Below, piece by piece: positions 6,112 through 16,919 of a stretch of DNA of 20,458 bases; position 1 is the first letter of the stretch; every line of letters starts with the position of its first letter. Origin of the DNA: a virus; the IMG/VR virus record IMGVR_UViG_3300046804_002425, positions 1 through 20,458 of that record; one strand, given 5' to 3'. Position numbers and translations under genes: made by a program. The notes under the pieces are model-generated. The model ran no database searches. It saw only the letters and a program-made list of their open reading frames with translations, and was not told the DNA's origin.

Positions 6112-7551
6112 TTATAACTCCTCTTGACCAATATTTTGCAATAATTGGCGAAGTTTACTAGATTCAACATTTGCCGAAGTTTTCTTAATTGTAATACCTT
6201 GAGTGGGGTCTGTTATTTCACCGGTAGATGCATCGACTACACTTTGACGTTGTAGTCCAGCCAAAATACTAGATCCTTTAGTGACTGGTGTATTTGAATC
6301 CGTTTGTCCATCTTCTCCTGGATCTGTAATACGCAGAGTATCAATATCAAAGTCCAAATCAATTTTCTGGCCAACTCCGCTTGATGAACGAGTTTTCATT
6401 AACTGAATTTGATATTTGCCTCGTTCTCTCATAGCGCGACTTGTAAAGATACCAAACACATTGTCTGCTGTCTGGATCTTACTCAGGCCTCCTGAAATAT
6501 GACTGTGATCAAATTCTACTTCTTCTACAGCACCACGATTTAACTGTGCGGCTGTAACTAGTACACAATTCTTTTCAACAGCTAAGTTGCGTAGTTCTTC
6601 AGATACAAACTTGTCTTTAATGAACAAGTTTTCTGCTGAAATCTTACGACTAATTGGCATAAGCAAATCTAAGTAGTCAACTAATAAAATGTCTACCTTG
6701 CGTCCTAGCTTAATCTCATATTCCTTTAAATAGCTTCTAACATCATTGGCTGTCTTACCGCTTGGCATATATTTGACCTGATACGTACCGCTCTTCTTGC
6801 CAACAATCTTAACACGCATTTCAACTTCGTCGATCTGTTTGAAGACCTCGCGTGTAGGAATCTCTGTGATCATACTGTCTACACGCATACTCACAAGTTC
6901 CTCTGAAAGTTCCAGTGTCAGGTATACTACATTTAACCCCTGTAGTGCCCAGTTCACACCTAGGTTCGCTAGAAATAAGCTCTTACCTGCACCAGATCCA
7001 CCTGCAAAGATGTTTAGCTCACCTCGATTCATTCCGCCAAACAACTTTCTATCTACTGTATCCCATCCAGTTTTAATTTGACCGTTTTTATCTTTAATAC
7101 GCATCAATCTGCTACGAGGATCAGCAAAATAGTCAGTGCCCATATCTTTATTAAGACCAACCTGAACCGCTGTCTTAACTAGATCCTCAACAGGACCATA
7201 CTCACCTTTTTCTAGTAGGTCTGCTGACTTAAGAATGGCTCGTTCAAGACCTTTGTGCCTAATAAAAGTTTCAAAGTCTTGTAGTAGCCAATCAAAGTGT
7301 TCTTCTCTAAGTTCTCCAGCGGATTGCAAGGTCATACCTGTTGCGGCACTGACGATTTCATAAGTAGGCAATACATTATGTTCAACTACATAGTCGTTGA
7401 TAAACTTAGCTGAATTTTGTAGTCTGCGATCAAATAATTCGTGATCAAAGATGCTTTGGCAACGCACAAATGTTTCTGCGTCACTTAGCATCATTTCTAA
7501 ATAAAGTTTTTGGATATCGTATCCGTAGTCTGCATTTTGTCTTGTTGTCAT
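6112..7551 (-). CDS. gp41: replicative DnaB-like DNA helicase (T4 gp41)
   Basis: A 479-aa hexameric 5'-3' helicase that unwinds the fork and partners primase gp61. The N-terminal helical domain spans about 1-135, then the RecA-like motor. Walker A is GGSGAGKS (184-191), Walker B is ILLVDYLDLL (288-297), with TAAQLN and HISGGLSKIQTADNVFGI further on, as in DnaB/gp41. The C-terminal 80 residues are a variable tail. The start is the ATG at 7551 (MTTRQNADYG). A longer in-frame ORF begins upstream but would run into the carbamoyltransferase, lacks a ribosome site, and its added residues do not look like gp41. No Shine-Dalgarno is seen. Instead TATAAT lies exactly 6 nt before this ATG, suggesting a leaderless message. 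The gene lies 19 bp after the carbamoyltransferase stop. Confidence 0.93.
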   Translation of the reverse strand: MTTRQNADYGYDIQKLYLEMMLSDAETFVRCQSIFDHELFDRRLQNSAKFINDYVVEHNVLPTYEIVSAATGMTLQSAGELREEHFDWLLQDFETFIRHKGLERAILKSADLLEKGEYGPVEDLVKTAVQVGLNKDMGTDYFADPRSRLMRIKDKNGQIKTGWDTVDRKLFGGMNRGELNIFAGGSGAGKSLFLANLGVNWALQGLNVVYLTLELSEELVSMRVDSMITEIPTREVFKQIDEVEMRVKIVGKKSGTYQVKYMPSGKTANDVRSYLKEYEIKLGRKVDILLVDYLDLLMPISRKISAENLFIKDKFVSEELRNLAVEKNCVLVTAAQLNRGAVEEVEFDHSHISGGLSKIQTADNVFGIFTSRAMRERGKYQIQLMKTRSSSGVGQKIDLDFDIDTLRITDPGEDGQTDSNTPVTKGSSILAGLQRQSVVDASTGEITDPTQGITIKKTSANVESSKLRQLLQNIGQEEL

Positions 7552-7557
7552 TGTAGT

Positions 7558-7563
7558 ATTATA
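7558..7563 (-). promoter_or_regulatory. -10 box of a predicted leaderless gp41 promoter
   Basis: A perfect TATAAT on the minus strand ends 6 nt before the ATG at 7551, so canonical spacing puts +1 on the A of ATG. The -35 position at 17 bp (TAGAGT, complement of 7581-7586) matches only 3 of 6, so a phage activator may be needed. No T4 MotA box (TGCTT) was seen. Confidence 0.5.
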
Positions 7564-7570
7564 TATTCTT

Positions 7571-9046
7571 TTAAGTAAAGACTCTAATTTTATATTGCCG
7601 TTCGAATGCCTGAGCATCATTATGATCATTAACCATAGGTTGACCTTTAATATTCAAACTAGTGTTTAATAACATAGGACATCCTGTCTTAGCGTACCAA
7701 AGTTCTAACAGTTTTCTAAAAGGCGAATCATCTTTAGGCACAGTTTGCACACGACTTGTGCCGTCTTTATGTACGATAGCAGGAAAGTTTTCAGGGTCTT
7801 TGCAAGCGGCAACAACCTGCATATACCTACTATTTTTCCAACCATTAGGCATTTCAAAATAATTGTGAACTAGTTCTTCTAAGATAGCCGGAGCAAAGGG
7901 CCTAAACTCTTGTCGTTGTTTAATAGCATTTACACGATCTTTAATATCAGGACCTCTTGGATCTGCTAGTAGACTACGATTACCTAGTGCCCTAGGACCA
8001 AATTCAGCGCGGCCTCGGGCAAGTCCACAAATTTTATCTTTGATAAGATGATTTACTATTGCATCATCATTGTTATGAAATCCCATGTCATAGCCTAAGA
8101 AAGGATTAGACCATTCAGTGTAGTGTTGCCAGTCTGGGTTATGTGCTAACACAGCGCCAATCGCACTACCTGCATCACCAGGATTAGGATAAATCCATGT
8201 GCTATCAAAATAATTGCCGGTCGACCTGTTAGCTAGACAATTAAGAGCACATCCTCCCATTAGTACAAGATTATTAGATTTAGTTAATTTTTTTCCTAAT
8301 TTTAAAGCCTCTTCAAAGTATCTTTCATATATTGCTTGCGTTGAGGCGGCCACATCAAAGTACTCTCTTACAGGAATATCTGTATTCCAATCTAGACATC
8401 CTCTATGAAGATTTTTCTCAAAGCTGAAGGTAGAAAAATTATCAACAAATGTGTGTAATATTTGTCCGTAATATTGATTTGAGTCGCCGTAAGCGGCCAT
8501 GCCCATAAGAATGTATTCTTCCTCGTTAGGCTTAAGACCAAGACGCTGTGTCATAGCACTATAGAACAGCCCTATACTATTTGGAAACCATTTGCTATAA
8601 ACTTTTTTAAGTTTTTTACCTTCAGCCTTCCATATAGTCAGAGTTTCAAATTCACCTATGGCATCGATTACAATAACACATGCTTGATCATAAGGACTGG
8701 TATAATACCCTAATGCTGCATGGCTGTGATGATGTGTGGTATACTTAATTGGACAATCAATATTGTATCGTCTAAGATACTTTTTTATATCGTTGTCAGA
8801 CCATTTCCATCCCTGACCTGCATATAATTGTCTAGCTGTTTTGAGATATGGATTTTCATACCAAATAACACGATCCGGCATTCCATAAAAGTTGTTACTG
8901 GCATAGTCAACTAATTCTTTGCATAAGTTTCTATCATTTTTAATTTTGCTAAATCTTTCGCTATGACTAGCAAACGCTAATTTTTCGTCGCAGAAAACAG
9001 CCAATGCTGCATCGTGACTATTTGCAGATATTCCCCATGTAATCAT
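7571..9046 (-). CDS. carbamoyltransferase, NodU/TobZ family
   Basis: A 491-aa member of the O-carbamoyltransferase family, which uses carbamoyl phosphate and ATP to carbamoylate sugars or small molecules. The Kae1/YrdC-like fold is shown by ISANSHDAAL (7-16), HHHSHA (105-110, the family's catalytic/metal His cluster), DAIGEFET, MGGCALNCLANR, the signature RAEFGPRALGNRSLLADPR, RPFAPAILEE, and LLNTSLNIKGQPM near the C-terminus. Family motifs run through to the end, so it looks complete. It is slightly shorter than NodU (about 560 aa), which fits phage-borne forms as I recall them. The ATG at 9046 overlaps the TGA of a 37-aa ORF (ATGA), implying coupled translation. It separates primase from helicase. 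The substrate cannot be read; cell-surface glycan, capsid sugar or modified nucleotide are options. Confidence 0.9.
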   Translation of the reverse strand: MITWGISANSHDAALAVFCDEKLAFASHSERFSKIKNDRNLCKELVDYASNNFYGMPDRVIWYENPYLKTARQLYAGQGWKWSDNDIKKYLRRYNIDCPIKYTTHHHSHAALGYYTSPYDQACVIVIDAIGEFETLTIWKAEGKKLKKVYSKWFPNSIGLFYSAMTQRLGLKPNEEEYILMGMAAYGDSNQYYGQILHTFVDNFSTFSFEKNLHRGCLDWNTDIPVREYFDVAASTQAIYERYFEEALKLGKKLTKSNNLVLMGGCALNCLANRSTGNYFDSTWIYPNPGDAGSAIGAVLAHNPDWQHYTEWSNPFLGYDMGFHNNDDAIVNHLIKDKICGLARGRAEFGPRALGNRSLLADPRGPDIKDRVNAIKQRQEFRPFAPAILEELVHNYFEMPNGWKNSRYMQVVAACKDPENFPAIVHKDGTSRVQTVPKDDSPFRKLLELWYAKTGCPMLLNTSLNIKGQPMVNDHNDAQAFERQYKIRVFT

Positions 9047-9156
9047 TTATAGATAAACGGATCTCTTTTCCGTAATTCCTCTAATCGTTTTTTAGTTTCT
9101 TTTCGTCGGTTATACCAACGCCACGGATACATAATAATATCAATTAGCTTTTTCAT
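9043..9156 (-). CDS. conserved micro-protein, 37 aa
   Basis: A 37-aa ORF: MKKLIDIIMYPWRWYNRRKE, then a charged helix ending ELRKRDPFIYK. It has an amphipathic, membrane-leaning first half and a very basic second half. The strong AGGAAG ribosome site (about 4 nt from the ATG), the 17-bp overlap with the end of primase and the ATGA overlap with the carbamoyltransferase all mark a real, translated gene. The RDPFIYK ending resembles, as far as I recall, tiny uncharacterised proteins of T4-like cyanophages. Its function is unknown. Confidence 0.7.
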   Translation of the reverse strand: MKKLIDIIMYPWRWYNRRKETKKRLEELRKRDPFIYK

Positions 9157-10126
9157 TTTCTTCCTTTTTAAACCAATTTTTAGATTTTAATTGAATTTTA
9201 AGTTTATTTGATTCGATACTACTTACAATCATATAAAGTGTATATAGCCTGCCATAATATCTTACAGAATCATTTATATCTTTAACATTATCTGGCCATT
9301 CAGGCATACTAACTGACCAACCATATTCTAATGCTTGCTCAACTGTTTTTAATCCTTCGTGATCTCTATCCGGTACTAATACTAATTCTTTGCCTAGTTG
9401 CTTTAATAGATAATTTTGACTATCTTTAATTTCCGAGCCAAGCAATGCACATCCTTCTATACTAAGTGCATCGAAAGGACCTTCACATACTATTGCATAT
9501 TTCCTATTATTTTGCTGTTTATCAAGATTAAAAACATATCCAGGTTGTTGTTCGCTTATATATTTAGGTTTGGCATCATTAACGGCTCTAGCTGTATATC
9601 CTACAACAATATTATCTTTGTAAAAAGGAATAATAACTCTATTGCTAAATCCTACTTTCGGAGTCCAATAAAAATCATAATCTTGAGGATATATTCCTCT
9701 TCCAATAAGATATTCAAGTATTGGAAGTAATTTTTCGGGAGGCGAATCTAGTAGTTCTAGTATAGAAATACTGTCAGGGGGCAGAGCTCTATGATCAAAT
9801 TTTGGTATAATACTACGTATCTCTTGGGTACTAGACTGATCAATTTTTAACGCCTCTAATCTAAGTTGATTTATTAAATCATCAGAAACATTAAACCATC
9901 TTAAAAGTTTATTCATTTTTTGGCTTAAATGTCTGCCGGGTTGCCAACTTGCCTTGAACCCACAATTAAAACAATGGTAACTTACAGCATCCCCTTGATT
10001 GAAGATTAAACCACCACGCTGACGCTTATCGTTACAGCAAGGGGCATTGAAGCTTATCCAACCACTTGGAGTGCGTTTATGTTTAGGAGGAAGATAAGAT
10101 TGTATAGTATCTATGATTAGATTCAT
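9140..10126 (-). CDS. gp61: DNA primase (T4 gp61-like)
   Basis: A 328-aa primase that makes RNA primers for lagging-strand synthesis with helicase gp41. The N-terminal zinc-binding domain has C30/C31 and C52-x2-C55 (YHCFNCGF) around an RGG (37-39), as in CHC2-type primases. The TOPRIM domain shows IVCEGPFDALSIE (E215, G216) and LVPDRDHEG (D253, D255), then VKDINDSV (281-288). Its length is near T4 gp61 (342 aa). The ATG at 10126 has no Shine-Dalgarno. A TTGACA-N17-TAAAAT promoter sits immediately before it, with 6 nt to the ATG. It would make sense for an early gene to have its own promoter here, because the gene upstream on the strand is a late virion gene. The end overlaps the 37-aa ORF. 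Confidence 0.92.
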   Translation of the reverse strand: MNLIIDTIQSYLPPKHKRTPSGWISFNAPCCNDKRQRGGLIFNQGDAVSYHCFNCGFKASWQPGRHLSQKMNKLLRWFNVSDDLINQLRLEALKIDQSSTQEIRSIIPKFDHRALPPDSISILELLDSPPEKLLPILEYLIGRGIYPQDYDFYWTPKVGFSNRVIIPFYKDNIVVGYTARAVNDAKPKYISEQQPGYVFNLDKQQNNRKYAIVCEGPFDALSIEGCALLGSEIKDSQNYLLKQLGKELVLVPDRDHEGLKTVEQALEYGWSVSMPEWPDNVKDINDSVRYYGRLYTLYMIVSSIESNKLKIQLKSKNWFKKEENEKAN

Positions 10127-10132
10127 AGAAAC

Positions 10133-10161
10133 ATTTTAACGTCTCACAATGATTTTGTCAA
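10133..10161 (-). promoter_or_regulatory. sigma70 promoter of primase, predicted leaderless
   Basis: The minus strand carries a perfect TTGACA (complement of 10156-10161), a 17-bp spacer, and TAAAAT (complement of 10133-10138). Six bases then lead to the ATG at 10126, so canonical +1 is the A of ATG. The whole element lies in the last codons and stop of the baseplate-like gene, so it is maintained inside coding sequence. Confidence 0.65.
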
Positions 10162-10948
10162 ACTTTCCGGTGCTGTTGTATGGTAATTGATATTTAACTC
10201 TTAACCAAATTGCATCATTATCGTAACTGATTCCTCTAACATAAGTTTTGGTTAGCAATGAATCAACATTGGTTACTGAAAAACTATCCATATCAGTCCA
10301 TACTGTAGAACCACTAATTACCTTAGCGTCCGTAGTTTGTACGTGTACAGTTGTGTTAAGGGCGACTGGGTAGAAATCTACATTTATTGTTGTAGTTTCC
10401 GCAATATAGTTAGGATCTTTAATTTGTGCACCTTCGGAATAAAAATTACGAGGCCACGGGGCAGGTTGGCTATCATCGTCCATAAAAAGAAATGTCTTTA
10501 TAGTAATAGGAGGCAATGATGTTGGCCAAGCATTGCCAATTAAGTCAATAGTACCAGATGCTCCAAACTGCGTATCTCCGTAGACTGGATAAATTTTATC
10601 ATCAACTGTTTGATATACTATATACTTTAAAAACTGAGGCTCAACAACGTCAAATGTATCAGCGGGAATTTCTACTCTAGCAATACCAGTTAGTGTACCG
10701 TCCGGAACTACTTCGCCGTCAAACACTTCTTGTCCGTGTATGTCTAATATTTTAAAATTTAAAGTTAAATCCGTAATATCTATGCGCTGTTGACTATTAT
10801 TTCTAATATCTAGTTCAACAGCATTATCTAGACCTTTATATAATTTGACGTTTTTTTGGTACACGATTCTCCACTCCAATGGTGATAATGCCAAATCAAG
10901 ATTACACTTGATCCTGTTTGGATATAAATAACTTGAAATTTTTTGCAT
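10136..10948 (-). CDS. baseplate/virion-like protein, 270 aa
   Basis: A 270-aa beta-rich protein. The N-terminal half (WRIVYQKNVKLYKGLDNAVE, then LDIRNNSQQRIDITDLTLNF and FKILDIHGQEVFDGEV) resembles the N-terminal domain of BppU-like baseplate upper proteins found in tailed-phage particles. The C-terminal half has more beta strands and few charges. The start is set at the ATG at 10948 (MQKISSYLYPNR). A TTG six codons upstream would precede the late octamer found here. A late CATAAATA (10970-10977) supports virion-phase expression. It is divergent from the 124-aa plus-strand gene, and its 3' end carries the primase promoter. Structural role likely, exact position in the particle unknown. Confidence 0.75.
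   Translation of the reverse strand: MQKISSYLYPNRIKCNLDLALSPLEWRIVYQKNVKLYKGLDNAVELDIRNNSQQRIDITDLTLNFKILDIHGQEVFDGEVVPDGTLTGIARVEIPADTFDVVEPQFLKYIVYQTVDDKIYPVYGDTQFGASGTIDLIGNAWPTSLPPITIKTFLFMDDDSQPAPWPRNFYSEGAQIKDPNYIAETTTINVDFYPVALNTTVHVQTTDAKVISGSTVWTDMDSFSVTNVDSLLTKTYVRGISYDNDAIWLRVKYQLPYNSTGKFDKIIVRR
10923..10930 (+). promoter_or_regulatory. T4-type late promoter (TATAAATA)
   Basis: An exact late octamer, 44 bp before the ATG at 10975. It lies within the first codons of the minus-strand baseplate-like gene and downstream of an in-frame TTG at 10918, which argues for the ATG as start of the plus-strand gene. Confidence 0.6.
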
Positions 10949-10969
10949 TTGGTAATAAACCCTCAACAG

Positions 10970-10977
10970 TATTTATG
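10970..10977 (-). promoter_or_regulatory. T4-type late promoter octamer (CATAAATA)
   Basis: The minus strand reads CATAAATA, 7 of 8 matches. It overlaps the plus-strand ATG at 10975-10977. With the opposing octamer at 10923-10930 it forms an interlocked pair whose transcripts would overlap at their 5' ends. Confidence 0.55.
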
Positions 10978-11349
10978 GTAAAATTAAGAGATAATATACA
11001 AGAACAATTACCCTTTATTTCTGTCCTGCACTACGGCGAAAATGAATACGTAGGTATAATAATAAATCAAGATCAATATGTAACCAGCTTCTATGATCTA
11101 AGTATTATTAAAACCCCAGAAGAAAAATCGGGTCTGTTAGAAATAGGTGAAATTTGGTGGTGGGAATCAAACCGTCAAATTCCAATTAACATCTTTTGCC
11201 GTAAAGAAATTGAACCGTTTCGCTATGCTATTAAAACCTTCAATAGCAAAGATGTTAGAATTATATTAGGTCCAGTTGTAAACTTATTAAATTTAAGTTT
11301 AAAACGTGTTAAACGAAAGTCTGTACAGTTAGTAAGAAAAAGTCGTTAA
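10975..11349 (+). CDS. hypothetical protein, 124 aa
   Basis: Not recognised. A 124-aa protein with a compact hydrophobic core (FISVLHYGENEYVGIIINQ), a Trp-rich stretch (GEIWWWESNR) and a very basic C-terminus (LKRVKRKSVQLVRKSR) that could bind nucleic acid or a membrane surface. The start is placed at the ATG 10975 because an exact late promoter lies 44 bp upstream of it. The open frame extends to a TTG at 10918, but that lies before the promoter and inside the opposite gene. No clear Shine-Dalgarno. Its stop overlaps the stop of the convergent DnaE-like gene by 4 bp (TTAA). Confidence 0.7.
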   Translation: MVKLRDNIQEQLPFISVLHYGENEYVGIIINQDQYVTSFYDLSIIKTPEEKSGLLEIGEIWWWESNRQIPINIFCRKEIEPFRYAIKTFNSKDVRIILGPVVNLLNLSLKRVKRKSVQLVRKSR

Positions 11350-11927
11350 CTATATCCGTAGCTTAGACTTTCGCAGATAAGATTCATCTGCACCACAATA
11401 GCCACAGCGTATGCTATAGCATGTGCTTTCTTAAAATAATACTCACCATTCTCCGGTTTCTTCCATATCGTCGTCCCAATCTCGGTCCATGTCTTCCCAA
11501 CTAGATTCCTTTTTGCTGGGCGGATCATAGCGATACACATTGCCAACTCTTCTATACTTCGGGGCTTCATAGTTTTCATCAATGAGGTGTGTCCATTCAC
11601 GTGAAATAGTAAATCCGTGAAATCTTTTTGCTCCAGTAGATCCCATAGTGGTTCAGTCTCCATTAGTTGTGTTAGATGTGTTTCATCTCTTACATCTTTA
11701 TAGATACTAACATTTAAAAAATCAATCTTAAAATAACCGCGTTCTTCTGCTTCTTTATAATCTATTGTACTTATTCCGGTAATAGGATTATACGGCACAG
11801 AAGTACAATACACACCGGTATTATGCTTTTTAAAAGTATTATTTTCTTCTTTTATTGCCGCCGACACGCATTCAAAGTGTTCAAGAGCACGAGTCCTATC
11901 AGCAAAATCAATATCAATATCCGGCAT
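11346..11927 (-). CDS. miniature DnaE-like (Pol III alpha palm) protein, 193 aa
   Basis: This 193-aa protein follows the bacterial replicase alpha subunit in order but is hugely reduced. MPDIDIDFADR (1-11) matches the PDFDIDF motif bearing two catalytic aspartates. HNTGVY (35-40) matches the HAGGVVI region. GYFKIDFLN (64-72) matches KFDFLGL, with D69 at the third catalytic aspartate. LWDLLEQKDFTDLLFHVNGH, then MKPRSIEELAMCIAMIRPAK matches the stretch leading to the RPGP motif, and YYFKKAHAIAYAVAI matches the FNKSHAAAYA region near the fingers. PHP, most of the fingers, the beta-binding and the OB domains are absent. It may be an inactive relic with a new role or a very small nucleotidyltransferase. 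Its start overlaps the 64-aa gene by one base (TAATG). The family assignment is from motif order and was not tested by search. Confidence 0.7.
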   Translation of the reverse strand: MPDIDIDFADRTRALEHFECVSAAIKEENNTFKKHNTGVYCTSVPYNPITGISTIDYKEAEERGYFKIDFLNVSIYKDVRDETHLTQLMETEPLWDLLEQKDFTDLLFHVNGHTSLMKTMKPRSIEELAMCIAMIRPAKRNLVGKTWTEIGTTIWKKPENGEYYFKKAHAIAYAVAIVVQMNLICESLSYGYS

Positions 11928-12121
11928 TAGTGTTTTATCTCTGTTTCAAATAATAATAAAGGCAAGTTTTGATGTAGATACGTTGCATAATTATCTGCTT
12001 GTTCTAAGTCGTCAAAGCCTGTTAGTTTGACATAAATCGTATTATCTTCTTCGGATAGAATTACCTCCATATCTAGCTGTGTTCTATCTGGAACATTTAA
12101 ACCTGTATCTTGAGAATTCAT
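11927..12121 (-). CDS. small hypothetical protein, 64 aa
   Basis: Not recognised. A 64-aa acidic protein whose middle (MEVILSEEDNTIYVKLTGF) looks like a beta hairpin followed by a helix (DDLEQADNYATYLHQNLP). Its ATG overlaps the TGA of the zinc-finger gene (ATGA, 4 bp) and its TAA overlaps the ATG of the DnaE-like gene (TAATG), so it is translationally linked to both. It may work with one of them. Confidence 0.7.
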   Translation of the reverse strand: MNSQDTGLNVPDRTQLDMEVILSEEDNTIYVKLTGFDDLEQADNYATYLHQNLPLLLFETEIKH

Positions 12122-12813
12122 AAATTAGCCTCCCTGACTACATTCTTAACTAGATCTACATCAAAGGTCTTTTTCTTAAAGAGTTTTGACCAATGTATGG
12201 GGTCTATTATACTACTTATAGCAGAAAGCTGATCATCTCTGAAACTAGCTAACATTTCTTTACCGCTTTTACAATTTAAAATTAACCACGGACTTATTTT
12301 ACCGTCTTTAACATCATAAACTGCCCTATTAGTACTTACATACTTAAAATAGTGATTCCACGCACTATTATTTTCTTTAGCCCACGATTCCATGTGTGCA
12401 ATACTTCGTTCGAGGGCTGTTTCTACAGCTTCTGTATGTATAAGTTCTAAAACATATTTTTCATACAGTTCGTCTCTTGTCCAATGATCGAGCTTCACAC
12501 CGCTTCTTACAATCCAATCAATGAAATTATCCGGATATAAGGGATTAACATTGTGTACATAACTACCAAATTTAACAAAGGCCAGATAGTAGGGGCTTTG
12601 AGCAAATTCTGCATAATTTTTATCTTTATCTGCCTTTTGTGTAAGTCGGTAAAAGCGATTATAGGTATGGAATCCTATAATAACATGCTTCTCGTCTTTA
12701 GCTAGATGCCTTCGCTTTTGTTCGCAAATATGCACAGCAAGAGTTTTTTCCTGCATGAATTCTTTATTACAATACTGACATTCGTAGGCTTTATTCACAT
12801 GTAATTTTAACAC
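12118..12813 (-). CDS. conserved phage protein with N-terminal zinc finger, 231 aa
   Basis: The N-terminus holds a zinc-finger-like motif: C12-x2-C15-x12-H28-x-C30, with H36 as an alternative ligand, preceding a basic KRRH. The remaining 190 residues (YNRFYRLTQKADKD, HWTRDELYEKYVLELIHTEA, ISPWLILNCKSGKEML) are helical and belong to no family I can name, though I recall similar proteins among conserved T4-like aquatic-phage genes. The start is a GTG that shares its first base with the TAG of the upstream gene (TAGTG), with no Shine-Dalgarno, typical of reinitiation. A DNA-binding or replication-accessory role is inferred from the finger and the neighbours only. Confidence 0.75.
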   Translation of the reverse strand: MLKLHVNKAYECQYCNKEFMQEKTLAVHICEQKRRHLAKDEKHVIIGFHTYNRFYRLTQKADKDKNYAEFAQSPYYLAFVKFGSYVHNVNPLYPDNFIDWIVRSGVKLDHWTRDELYEKYVLELIHTEAVETALERSIAHMESWAKENNSAWNHYFKYVSTNRAVYDVKDGKISPWLILNCKSGKEMLASFRDDQLSAISSIIDPIHWSKLFKKKTFDVDLVKNVVREANL

Positions 12814-13289
12814 TATTTTAATATTTTTTCAATTTGTTTATCTTCAAAACCATAATCTTGTGCTAGTCTTTTAGCTTCGGGCACTGACATAAGCTCAGCC
12901 ATAAGTTCTAGTTCATCGGTTTTACGATCGGGATATAATTCTTCTAGTAATTTAAAAATTTTATTTTGAGACTTTTTCTTTTTAAATCCAATCCATTCAT
13001 GGTAATAGATTTTATCTCCGCCTTGGCCGCACATACAGAGTAATTGCCAAAGTAACTTAGGATGCTTTTGTAAAGAAAACCAATGTTTATTAAAATATTC
13101 ATTTACGACAAGCACAAAGTATTCTTGTGTTTCTCTACTTGAGGATTTTACATTACTAATATATCGATTTAAAATAAAAAATTCATTTTTCAATGCCTTG
13201 CGCTGTTCGTCATCCATATCGTCCCACAGTTGGGTAAACTTCATATCAACAGCAGCTAGTTTTTCTTTTAGTTCAATTTTTTCGCCCAT
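12813..13289 (-). CDS. conserved phage protein, 158 aa, possibly gp62-like
   Basis: A helical 158-aa protein: FFILNRYISNVKSSSRETQE (37-56), HPKLLWQLLCMCGQGGDK, EWIGFKKKKSQNK, then an acidic helix and a basic C-terminus (DKQIEKILK). The FxxNRxxS element, the central tract and the lysine-rich segment recall the small clamp-loader subunit gp62 of T4-like phages, but the similarity is faint, and gp44 and gp45, its usual partners, are not in the window. I regard it as a conserved protein of unknown function with gp62 as a hypothesis. It starts 17 bp inside the preceding 90-aa gene. Confidence 0.7.
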   Translation of the reverse strand: MGEKIELKEKLAAVDMKFTQLWDDMDDEQRKALKNEFFILNRYISNVKSSSRETQEYFVLVVNEYFNKHWFSLQKHPKLLWQLLCMCGQGGDKIYYHEWIGFKKKKSQNKIFKLLEELYPDRKTDELELMAELMSVPEAKRLAQDYGFEDKQIEKILK

Positions 13290-13545
13290 ATCTCATCTCA
13301 TAATCTTTGTAATCATCTGTTAATCTATATATTAGTATAGCACGATCAAGCGCCTTTCGTACAGCCGGATTGGTTTTTGCAGCTTGCCGCATAGCTATAA
13401 CTAGATTATGTTCGTCCAAATCTAAACGACCCGAGTCTCTACCGATTTCAAATCTTTCTTCAGGCGACGCACCGTGTTCTCTAGCATAAGTTATGCCATC
13501 TGCATATTCATATATGTAGGTTGCTCCGGGTTTAAGAGTTCCCAT
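13273..13545 (-). CDS. conserved hypothetical phage protein, 90 aa
   Basis: A 90-aa protein beginning MGTLKPGATYIYEYADGITY, followed by GASPEERFEIGRDSGR, NLVIAMRQAAKTNPAVRKAL and a closing IYRLTDDYKDYEMRYGRKN. I recall close relatives in many T4-like aquatic phages, always uncharacterised. It starts 14 bp inside the DUF465-like gene and is overlapped at its 3' end by the 158-aa gene. No catalytic motif is visible. Confidence 0.75.
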   Translation of the reverse strand: MGTLKPGATYIYEYADGITYAREHGASPEERFEIGRDSGRLDLDEHNLVIAMRQAAKTNPAVRKALDRAILIYRLTDDYKDYEMRYGRKN

Positions 13546-13732
13546 TTAGGCCATCGATTTGTCTACGACACTTCTCTATTTCGTCCTTGATATGTAACTT
13601 AACTTTTTTTAATGTTTCAATTTTCATATCATTTCCATGTTGATTGTAGAGCTCCGTAATATCCTTATCGATTTTATTATGTTTGTCTTGTAAATGACTT
13701 ATGTGATGCTCTATTTTTTCTCTAGTCAACAT
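13532..13732 (-). CDS. DUF465/YdcH-like coiled-coil protein, 66 aa
   Basis: A 66-aa fully helical protein with the DUF465 pattern: HHISHLQDKHNKIDKDI at 9-25 and ETLKKVKLHIKDEIEK at 39-54, a two-helix antiparallel coiled coil. YdcH-type proteins of bacteria are short and uncharacterised. The ATG at 13732 has one of the strongest ribosome sites in the window (AAGGAG, 5-6 nt spacing). Confidence 0.75.
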   Translation of the reverse strand: MLTREKIEHHISHLQDKHNKIDKDITELYNQHGNDMKIETLKKVKLHIKDEIEKCRRQIDGLNGNS

Positions 13733-13741
13733 GCTATCTCC

Positions 13742-14248
13742 TTATAAGATTTTTGATAGATCAATAATTTCACTCTGGCGACTTATTTCTTTTACAAAAT
13801 AGGCGCAAGGGGGTTTTTGTTGTGTCCCTAATGGAACAGATAATAATTGTCCGTTCCTCATTTTAGGAAAATACCATTTTACATCATTGTAAAAATTAAC
13901 AATTTCAATTTTTAAAAAGTCAACTTTAAAGCTACTTAAAGGATTAAAACAAAATGCTTCAAATCCGCGATCATTTAAACTTGTAAGAGGTAAAATTTCT
14001 ATATCACATGCACTAGAGCTGTCGCCAACAGCAATACTCCAATCTATTGGCATAGTAACTTCGTAATCGCCAATTTTTAATACCATTGCAGGACTATTAA
14101 ACGATTCTAAAAATATTAGGGGCATGAAGAAAAAATCTGGATTTTGTGAGTCGCTGTTATCAAGTACAGCAAATCTCATATTTTCGTCTACTTCTTCTGG
14201 TAGATTATTTAAATCGTAGGGTACGTTATCTAATGTTAATATTTGCAT
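13742..14248 (-). CDS. conserved T4-like phage protein, 168 aa
   Basis: A 168-aa protein I recall as widely conserved next to uvsW in T4-like aquatic phages: FFFMPLIFLESFNSPAMVLK, then MPIDWSIAVGDSSSACDIEI, then LPLTSLNDRGFEAFCFNPLS, then VKWYFPKMRNGQLLSVPLG and PPCAYFVKEI. Function unknown. The start is the ATG at 14248 (MQILTLDNVPY). A TTG five codons upstream overlaps the UvsW stop and is less likely. GGAA lies about 9 nt before the ATG. It follows UvsW by 5 bp. Confidence 0.8.
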   Translation of the reverse strand: MQILTLDNVPYDLNNLPEEVDENMRFAVLDNSDSQNPDFFFMPLIFLESFNSPAMVLKIGDYEVTMPIDWSIAVGDSSSACDIEILPLTSLNDRGFEAFCFNPLSSFKVDFLKIEIVNFYNDVKWYFPKMRNGQLLSVPLGTQQKPPCAYFVKEISRQSEIIDLSKIL

Positions 14249-14253
14249 AATGT

Positions 14254-15714
14254 TTAGTTCCAATCAACCTTTTCTAGTGTAAAGGGGTATTTCGCCTCCT
14301 TATAAAATTTCTTCCTCTGCGTAAGATGACGCTTGGCGTATTTACAGGTTGATGTGACATCCCAGATCTGAACGAAGTCTTTGTCTTCGGCTTTTCTAAT
14401 ACCTCGCCCAATTGATTGTATAACCCTCGTAAAGCTCTTTCCGGGCTCCACAAGAACCAGATTAAAAATCCTAGGGATATTAATACCCACAGCGGCCACA
14501 CCATAAGTCGCCACAATAATCTTGTTATCCACAGTTTTGACTTCGTCATATTCACTTTTCCTGTCTTTTGTTTTTACTTCGCCTGATATAAACACAGAGC
14601 CTGGTATATTATCTATAATAAATTTGCCTGTTTCAATCCTATTAACTAGGACTAGGGTATTCCCACTGTTCCCAATACCATCAACCATCTTAGATATGAA
14701 TGTCATACGATCTTTGTTTGTTACAAGATATTTGTATTCTTCTGCGTATGACTTAAACTCTGGTAAGTCGATTAACTGTACAACATTAACATGACAGTTA
14801 GATAGGATGCCTTTTTCTTGTAATTCGTGTGCATGTACCTGATGTACTACTGGGCCAAGACTAGCAAATATCTGCTCAAATTCAAAATCTTCTTTAGGTA
14901 CAGTACCAGTTAATCCCCAACGAATAGGCGCATTATTAAAATTTTGTGTCAGTAGATTGCGAAGCACAGTGGCCTTGGCCATGTGTACTTCATCTACCAT
15001 AATTGTCTTAACACCATCAAGAAATTCTGCAAGCGTAAGAATTTCATGTTCGCTGTTTTTGCTTTTCTTGTCTAAAATATTAAGACTTTGCCATGTAGCA
15101 ATAGTGTGAGTTTTATTCAATTCTTTACGATCACCATAGTACACACCTACATCTAAACCGCAGTTGATAAAATCTTCTTCTGTCTGTTCGACAAGACTTT
15201 TATTAGGTACAATGGTAAATGTTCTACCATAGGGCTCGCATAACTTGGCCAAAGTTGCTGTGGTAATTGTCTTACCAAAACCAGTGGCAATTTCTTGTAG
15301 ACATTGAGGATTTTCAAGAAATTTATTAATCACTTCTACTTGGTCATCGCGTAGTCTAATAGGTTCGCCTGCGTATCTGTGTCCAGTTGGCCAAGTTTTA
15401 TCTCCCCAGAAATCTTCTTTGATGCGTGGAAATTCTAATTTAATAGGCTCACGGAAATCTTCAATTTCTCTGACATCTACACCACTATTTTCCAGGACTT
15501 CTAGTATCTTAGGTAGTTGGCTGACAAAGCCGTTTCCGCCCATGCCGAATAAGGTTACCGAGCCATCCCAGCGACCAAGTTTATATGCGGGACGATAACG
15601 AGCCGTAGGATCTTCATACTTAAAGGTGTTTGACAACTTCCTGCGAATTTCCACAGGAAGCCCCTCTAATTTAATGTTTACTTCGTCGCGTATTACTAAC
15701 TTACAGGATGTCAT
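14254..15714 (-). CDS. uvsW: UvsW SF2 helicase
   Basis: A 486-aa RNA/DNA helicase (T4 UvsW, about 500 aa) that unwinds R-loops and branched DNA and moves replication from origin-dependent to recombination-dependent mode. An N-terminal domain of about 110 residues includes YKLGRWDGSVTLF. Then come the helicase motifs: Walker A ATGFGKT (143-149), the DEVH box (241-244), LTGTVPKE (motif III), ATYGVAAVGINIPR and the arginine-finger motif QSIGRGIRKAEDKD in the last fifth. GAGG sits 6 nt before the ATG at 15714. The start overlaps the 391-aa gene by 14 bp, so UvsW shares that gene's transcript. Confidence 0.95.
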   Translation of the reverse strand: MTSCKLVIRDEVNIKLEGLPVEIRRKLSNTFKYEDPTARYRPAYKLGRWDGSVTLFGMGGNGFVSQLPKILEVLENSGVDVREIEDFREPIKLEFPRIKEDFWGDKTWPTGHRYAGEPIRLRDDQVEVINKFLENPQCLQEIATGFGKTITTATLAKLCEPYGRTFTIVPNKSLVEQTEEDFINCGLDVGVYYGDRKELNKTHTIATWQSLNILDKKSKNSEHEILTLAEFLDGVKTIMVDEVHMAKATVLRNLLTQNFNNAPIRWGLTGTVPKEDFEFEQIFASLGPVVHQVHAHELQEKGILSNCHVNVVQLIDLPEFKSYAEEYKYLVTNKDRMTFISKMVDGIGNSGNTLVLVNRIETGKFIIDNIPGSVFISGEVKTKDRKSEYDEVKTVDNKIIVATYGVAAVGINIPRIFNLVLVEPGKSFTRVIQSIGRGIRKAEDKDFVQIWDVTSTCKYAKRHLTQRKKFYKEAKYPFTLEKVDWN

Positions 15715-16876
15715 CGATGTCCTCGCCTAGCGGCTTTCTAGTATTGTAGTATACTATCAAATCAACAGCATCGCAATAGATACTTGTCTTATTGTTCTTA
15801 AAATTATTTGAGAAACTTATGACAGATTTTGGATACCAGTCGGAATTTATCAAAAATTTTGGTAATTTATTGTTTACTATTCCTACTATTTCTGTTGTCT
15901 TGTCTAGTCGTTGGTTAAAGTTTAGACTAGAAATTTTATTATTAAAAATTTTATTAGATTCAGTAGTATTGTCAAATCTAAAATATATACCAACGTTATT
16001 GAGACCAGAATTTTTTATGGTTTTTTCAAGTTTTTCAAAATTTTCGGTGGTCTCTTTAATGTCGTGACCGTTGAAAATTATTAAGGTAGGAAGACGTCGT
16101 AAGTCTACCAAACTTCTGAACAAATCATCTAAGGTGTAAGACTGAGAGTTAACGTATACCCGAGTGTTACTTCTATTAGCAAGGTCGTTAGTGAGTGTTT
16201 TTTCTGGATTTTTTTCAAAAATTTGGTATTGAAATGCCAACCGTCGATCATTCAGTAATGTTAAATTGTTTTTTGAAATAGTTCCTATCTCAGCAAAAAT
16301 ATTTTTTAGATATTTTTCATTATCGATCGAAAATATTTCAAACGGCGTTTTTTGTTCCTGTAAAATTTTCGAAATTTCTTGATAAAAATTCCAAATTTTT
16401 GGCTCTATTTGGAAATTATACTTTTTTAATTCTTTAACTATTAGATAGATATTTTTTTCGGTCAACGAGATTACACAGTATCGACCTTGAGTTTGAATTT
16501 GTCCTTGTACAACTTTAGCAAAATCGGAAAAAATCTGTTTTATTTTTTTATTAAAGGAATATTCTACTACTAATGCCGGTTCTGGATTAGAAATCGTATA
16601 AATGCATCTTACTTGATCGATGACCCTAAATCTTTCTCCCCACCTCGGGGTGTCGATCACTTCAGCTTGATTATCATTTATGACAGGAAGTAATAATTTG
16701 TTTTCTTGAAAAATTTTAACCAGTAAATTTCCTTGATTTTCTGTCAAAAAATTACCGTGTGTAATTTGTCTTGCTAAAGAAGATAAAATTTTTCTATCTT
16801 TAATTGGTATATTAGTATCTAACCGATTAATTCCAAATTTATTAAACTCTATGAGTAGTTGGTCTGTTGTAATCAT
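15701..16876 (-). CDS. uncharacterised protein upstream of uvsW, 391 aa
   Basis: Not assigned. It starts MITTDQLLIEFNKFGINRLD. The segment KILSSLARQITHGNFLTENQ (28-47) with NLLVKIFQEN looks like a small helical module. The rest alternates strands and helices without a nuclease, helicase or polymerase motif I can identify: GRYCVISLTEKNIYLIVKEL, LPTLIIFNGHDIKE, VGIYFRFDN. The gene is visibly more AT-rich than UvsW, full of AAATTTT tracts, and Asn/Lys/Ile-rich. The ATG has no Shine-Dalgarno. A perfect consensus promoter lies directly before it, 6 nt from the ATG. It overlaps uvsW by 14 bp, so a DNA-repair or helicase-partner role is a reasonable guess. Confidence 0.75.
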   Translation of the reverse strand: MITTDQLLIEFNKFGINRLDTNIPIKDRKILSSLARQITHGNFLTENQGNLLVKIFQENKLLLPVINDNQAEVIDTPRWGERFRVIDQVRCIYTISNPEPALVVEYSFNKKIKQIFSDFAKVVQGQIQTQGRYCVISLTEKNIYLIVKELKKYNFQIEPKIWNFYQEISKILQEQKTPFEIFSIDNEKYLKNIFAEIGTISKNNLTLLNDRRLAFQYQIFEKNPEKTLTNDLANRSNTRVYVNSQSYTLDDLFRSLVDLRRLPTLIIFNGHDIKETTENFEKLEKTIKNSGLNNVGIYFRFDNTTESNKIFNNKISSLNFNQRLDKTTEIVGIVNNKLPKFLINSDWYPKSVISFSNNFKNNKTSIYCDAVDLIVYYNTRKPLGEDIDDIL

Positions 16877-16882
16877 GTTACT

Positions 16883-16911
16883 ATTATATAAGAATAGGTC
16901 TTATTTGTCAA
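16883..16911 (-). promoter_or_regulatory. perfect consensus sigma70 promoter, predicted leaderless
   Basis: The minus strand carries TTGACA (complement of 16906-16911), a 17-bp spacer, and TATAAT (complement of 16883-16888): an exact consensus match. Only 6 nt separate the -10 from the ATG at 16876, so canonical +1 is the A of ATG. It should drive the 391-aa gene and uvsW. Confidence 0.75.
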
Positions 16912-16919
16912 GACCTATT
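16893..16919. repeat. perfect 10-bp inverted repeat over the -35 box
   Basis: The arms AATAGGTCTT (16893-16902) and AAGACCTATT (16910-16919) are perfect complements around a 7-nt centre. The -35 hexamer lies across the centre and second arm. It could be an operator, or a stem-loop terminator for the nucleotidyltransferase gene ending at 16927. The tract after the stem on the minus strand (CTTATAT) is a poor U-run, which favours an operator or a dual role. Confidence 0.7.

Follow-up and report, generated by a model that had tools for sequence, protein, structure and literature searches.

Probable leaderless messages for the replicative helicase, the primase and a 391-residue protein in a clade of T4-like jumbo phages

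The genes of the replicative helicase (gp41), the primase (gp61) and a protein of 391 amino acids, together with a few others, are very probably expressed as leaderless mRNAs driven by host sigma70 in a clade of T4-like jumbo phages, judging from the position of their promoters. The arrangement was studied in a 20,458-base stretch of DNA (henceforth the window) that represents part of the genome of an uncultured phage of the T4-like jumbo type. The arrangement is carried by a widespread group of very large freshwater phages and is kept in dozens of diverged relatives. When transcription begins right at the first base of a gene, the message probably reaches the ribosome without a landing site. 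In the mechanism that we propose, host RNA polymerase would begin transcription at the start codon itself, or no more than one base away from it, from host-type sigma70 promoters, and ribosomes would recognise the 5'-terminal AUG of the resulting mRNA with no need of a Shine-Dalgarno (SD) sequence; the same type of promoter, placed ~20-35 nt upstream, would drive a second set of genes, most of them shorter, whose leaders carry an ordinary SD. Both the 5' ends and the leaderless translation are predicted here from promoter geometry, conservation, absence of the SD and coding from the ATG.

Promoters at the start codons in the window

The original prediction placed a -10 box 6 nt before the ATG of each of the three genes and no SD at any of them. 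All three sites were recovered exactly where it had put them, on the minus strand, and their starts indeed lack an SD, which is present at 15 of the 29 starts in the window. The features are as follows.

6112..7551, minus strand: gp41-like replicative helicase, predicted leaderless start at ATG 7551 (phrog_19 DnaB-like replicative helicase, E 3e-67; DnaB_C)
7558..7586, minus strand: gp41 promoter, perfect TATAAT at 7563-7558, 6 nt to ATG 7551; best -35 at 7586-7581, matching at only 3/6 positions
9140..10126, minus strand: gp61-like DNA primase, predicted leaderless start at ATG 10126 (phrog_47 DNA primase, E 3e-47; Toprim_2)
10133..10161, minus strand: gp61 promoter, sigma70-type, TTGACA at 10161-10156, 17 nt, TAAAAT at 10138-10133, 6 nt to the ATG; 11/12 consensus
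15701..16876, minus strand: 391-aa gene, predicted leaderless start at ATG 16876 (44 distinct upstream sequences among relatives; protein with invariant residues)
16883..16911, minus strand: promoter of the 391-aa gene, sigma70-type, TTGACA at 16911-16906, 17-nt spacer, TATAAT at 16888-16883, 6 nt to the ATG; 12/12 consensus
16893..16919, minus strand: terminator-like inverted repeat directly after the upstream gene, a hairpin in the sequence with the -35 box in its loop
166..403, plus strand: DUF3460 gene (PF11943, E 9e-21), TTGACT-17-TATATA-5-ATG at 200; promoter 9/12

The promoter of the 391-aa gene is the sole 12/12 match in the window. At gp61, the preceding ORF contains the TTGACA in its 3' end, and its stop codon overlaps the TAAAAT. 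The DUF3460 gene is a possible fourth member, weaker than the other three; it had no homologue in the fetched relative loci and no relative in the scan of the genome collection.

The best cultured relative of the window helicase is that of the Pseudomonas jumbo phage PA5oct (51.6%). The 391-aa gene overlaps the start of uvsW (15714), and searches of annotated phages, Pfam and PDB sequences gave no match to its product. Its predicted model (pLDDT 89, pTM 0.59) is confident locally, and a fold search with it retrieved only otherwise unnamed phage proteins, plus weak PDB matches to parts of SF2 helicases, LAGLIDADG and SUI1-like domains, every one with E > 0.001; on this modelling the protein is possibly helicase-like. 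At least 12 relatives carry a clear intrinsic terminator ~50 nt before the ATG of this gene, abutting the -35 box and leaving room for the promoter alone. The hairpin at the window promoter is similar to these terminators, but weaker.

Conservation of the promoter spacing in relatives

Relatives were taken from IMG/VR and consisted of 80 loci with the helicase (72-92% identity), 17 with the primase and one with the 391-aa gene, in which genes were called by a simple script and not by a trained gene finder. A promoter was scored as TTGACA-16/18-TATAAT with up to three mismatches, situated 5-7 nt before the ATG, and unique upstream regions were counted. The promoter-ATG configuration is not due to chance. 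It was found in 44/71 upstreams of gp41, 58/67 of gp61 and 28/44 of the 391-aa gene (62-87%), as compared to 2.0%, 1.8% and 0.7%, respectively, of dinucleotide shuffles, and to 26/1314 (2.0%) of the other genes of the same loci. Fisher p-values for the three families ranged from 4e-32 to 7e-72, uncorrected for relatedness, and related sequences inflate the counts. A sliding control, in which other offsets were scored in the same upstream sequences, gave values near zero. Among the promoter-bearing upstreams, all with the -35 at 16-18 nt, the spacer was exactly 17 nt in 34/44 (gp41), 50/58 (gp61) and 22/28 (391-aa gene). With starts corrected where the script had misplaced them, the promoter was counted in 62/67 gp61 and 35/44 391-aa upstreams, figures that are biased upward since a choice of start was allowed.

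Distances between the -10 box and the ATG, a count that the original prediction had proposed, were tallied over 1413 distinct ATG starts in the relatives. Exact TATAAT sequences peaked sharply at two distances, 5-7 nt (94 starts) and ~25-34 nt, with few in between, and the former peak was essentially confined to the gp41, gp61 and 391-aa families. Relatives with shifted -10 boxes or conserved SDs had been named as evidence that would speak against the prediction, and here too it withstood the comparison: in relatives with shifted starts the promoter moves along with the start codon, and an SD is rare (1/62 for gp61, 4/68 for gp41 and 0/44 for the 391-aa gene). An exact search for the pattern GTATAATANNNNATGA returned no matches, the pattern being too narrow.

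Relatedness was handled through clusters of protein identity and not through a tree. The leaderless form was present in 14/15 clusters of the 391-aa family (50% identity), 20/20 of gp61 (70%) and 5/8 of gp41 (80%), the independent clusters of gp41 being few because this protein is too conserved. The 391-aa proteins in the alignment were as low as ~20-50% identical to that of the window, and the promoter spacing is still kept where the protein has diverged to ~20-30% identity. Roughly one-third of the gp41 upstreams are without the full promoter, and most of these have a bare -10, overlap the upstream stop, or carry an SD (four cases). In gp61, the strengths of the two boxes trade off, such that a weak -35 is paired with a perfect -10 and vice versa (p=1.4e-4, uncorrected for relatedness). 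Lastly, 73% of the starts have a pyrimidine at -1, versus 51% in other genes (p=4e-7), as expected if the A of the ATG is +1. A CA-rich region downstream of the start was also looked for, and only a slight excess of C was seen.

The genome-wide pattern in large relatives

Four large relatives (266-383 kb) were scanned for strong promoters before genes, which fell 5-8 nt from the start in 22 cases and 18-40 nt in 79, with just three at 9-17 nt. An SD was found in 0/22 of the first class versus 63/79 of the second, and the genes of the leaderless class were longer (median 234 vs 131 aa; p=0.017). Families leaderless in more than one genome included a PDDEXK exonuclease (4/4), DnaJ (2/2), gp46 (2/3) and a short unknown gene (2/2). 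Across ten relatives, TTGAC-N17-19-TATAAT-N5-7-RTG had 54 matches, and the reversed control had 2. The coordinated leaderless set that was proposed for a T4-like replication module is borne out in its conserved geometry and lack of SDs, but it is wider than three genes, amounting to ~1-10 per large relative.

Five of the ten larger relatives encode a phage version of ribosomal protein bS21 (G001 274961-275113, G002 10787-10945, G003 41266-41424, G005 153166-153321 and G007 106439-106591), and nothing links it to the leaderless messages. It adjoins a gene for a DexA-like 3'-5' exonuclease in G001, G002 and G005, and in G005 the exonuclease gene has the leaderless arrangement. High levels of fMet-tRNA favour leaderless mRNA; a phage initiator tRNA was considered and rejected, as none of the six CAU tRNAs inspected in G001 and G002 had the GGG/CCC anticodon stem. 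Genes for tmRNA with tag peptides occur near clusters of ~25-40 tRNA genes (L138:15530-15935, L140:17350-17781 and L162:12470-12886). A tRNA with a CUA anticodon, of the amber suppressor type, occurs in G001, L118:10196-10271; TAG is rare as a stop in G001 (15/400), yet still used.

The primase start in cultured phages

The primase genes of the Pseudomonas phages PA5oct and Paride are preceded by TTGACA-17-TATAAT-GTGCGC-GTG, i.e., a 12/12 promoter at 6 nt and no SD, and the whole genome of PA5oct contains five matches to the pattern versus none in the control. These two phages are closely related, but their primase starts are annotated at different codons (Paride OR805295 17280; PA5oct NC_071039 145884), that of Paride being an ATG 102 nt downstream of the promoter-adjacent GTG. 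The promoter position suggests that the true start in both is the GTG located 6 nt after the TATAAT. It is to be noted that GUG leaderless starts are weak in E. coli (PMC9031893), which makes the leaderless case less certain for PA5oct.

The primase of the Stenotrophomonas phage BUCT608 (L183, ATG 210) has TTGATG-17-TACAAT-6-ATG and no SD, and from this layout may be a separate leaderless case in another phage group. The idea that every T4-like or jumbo phage has a leaderless primase was rejected: the distant jumbo phages PBECO4, GAP32 and XbC2 have an SD at the primase, with a TATAAT further upstream, the T4-like KpF2 has an SD leader, and no leaderless promoter was found at the primase of Phosso or SCTP-2.

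Alternative explanations

The promoters could be real but incidental, with the proteins made mainly from longer operon transcripts through translational coupling or re-initiation. The gene order offers some room for this, as the upstream stop lies 8-13 nt before the ATG of gp61 in most relatives and 15-19 nt before that of gp41, and 11/69 gp41 genes are promoterless and overlap the upstream stop. However, the 391-aa gene is often isolated by its terminator, with no close upstream ORF in many relatives; the gp41 promoter and its spacing are conserved while the sequence upstream varies widely; and an exact gap of 5-7 nt would be needless for coupled genes. We consider this explanation improbable overall, even if, where gp41 or gp61 follows closely behind another gene, read-through with translational coupling could serve as a second route next to the leaderless one.

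It is still less probable that the ATGs are wrong and that translation begins further downstream, after an ordinary leader, as the Paride annotation would have it. Codons 2-16 evolve as coding sequence, with pN/pS of 0.10 in gp41, 0.18 in gp61 and 0.28 in the 391-aa gene (the latter from 18 pairs only), and such purifying selection indicates that the codons are translated and these ATGs used; moreover, none of the candidate starts inside the Paride frame has an SD. Alternatively, the TATAAT before the ATG might not be a promoter at all but an A/T-rich element that recruits ribosomes, since initiation without an SD can be helped by A/T-rich upstream regions that are free of structure. Against this stand the -35 hexamer, which each of the three families has at 16-18 nt (mostly 17), the trade-off between the -35 and -10 strengths in gp61, and the occurrence of the identical TTGACA-17-TATAAT at leader spacing elsewhere in these genomes; we regard this reading, too, as very improbable. 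Leaderless mRNAs made from host sigma70 promoters are the explanation that we favour.

As for what the leaderless mRNAs might achieve, we suggest tentatively, with confidence a little short of even, that weak leaderless initiation behind a strong promoter would supply replication and repair enzymes at a low, steady rate, out of competition with the SD-bearing phage messages. A switch in translation initiation, whereby a ribosome altered by the phage (e.g., by the phage bS21) or a stressed host would favour 5'-AUG messages, seems unlikely; if true, replication and repair genes would be singled out for translation at a certain stage or when the host grows slowly.

Comparison with known systems

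To our knowledge, phages of Gram-negative bacteria offer mostly single, scattered examples of leaderless mRNA, lambda cI among them. In the open-access papers covered by a limited search, no conserved leaderless helicase-primase set was described for T4-like phages. The broader claim that no coordinated leaderless set was known is nonetheless too strong, since leaderless middle and late mRNAs were reported for the Thermus phage phiYS40 (PMC3594737). There, as predicted here from the configuration, a class of phage genes has mRNAs that lack both leader and SD; however, the host of phiYS40 belongs to a phylum rich in leaderless genes, the mRNAs are middle and late, and changed levels of IF2 and IF3 accompany them. 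The cI gene of lambda (PMC9031893) likewise has a sigma70 promoter and an mRNA that starts with AUG, but it is the single lysogeny repressor of a temperate phage and not a set of replication genes.

Two bacterial systems offer further parallels. In Deinococcus, -10 boxes next to ORFs were demonstrated to work as promoters for leaderless genes (PMC12340547); the -10 lies a few bases before the start codon, as in the phages, and there the need for this spacing is experimental. These are, however, cellular genes, comprising about one-third of those in D. radiodurans, whereas here a small set is embedded in phages that otherwise use the SD. In Lactococcus cremoris, leaders are either <5 nt or ~40 nt, and lengths between 4 and 14 nt are absent (PMC10986495); this bimodality resembles the nearly empty 9-17 nt range in the phage relatives, although the leaders were measured in the bacterium, which has ~13% leaderless mRNAs, and the phage positions were read from sequence.

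The helicase and primase proteins are themselves homologous to T4-type gp41 and gp61, but the sampled primases of KpF2, GAP32 and PBECO4 have an SD leader. In the present clade, the core replication module appears to keep leaderless starts over deep divergence, beside SD genes with the same promoter type, which allows leaderless and leadered initiation to be compared as natural pairs. The idea can be tested now in the cultured Pseudomonas phages PA5oct and Paride, and the annotation of starts is affected as well, as seen in the different primase codons chosen in these two phages.
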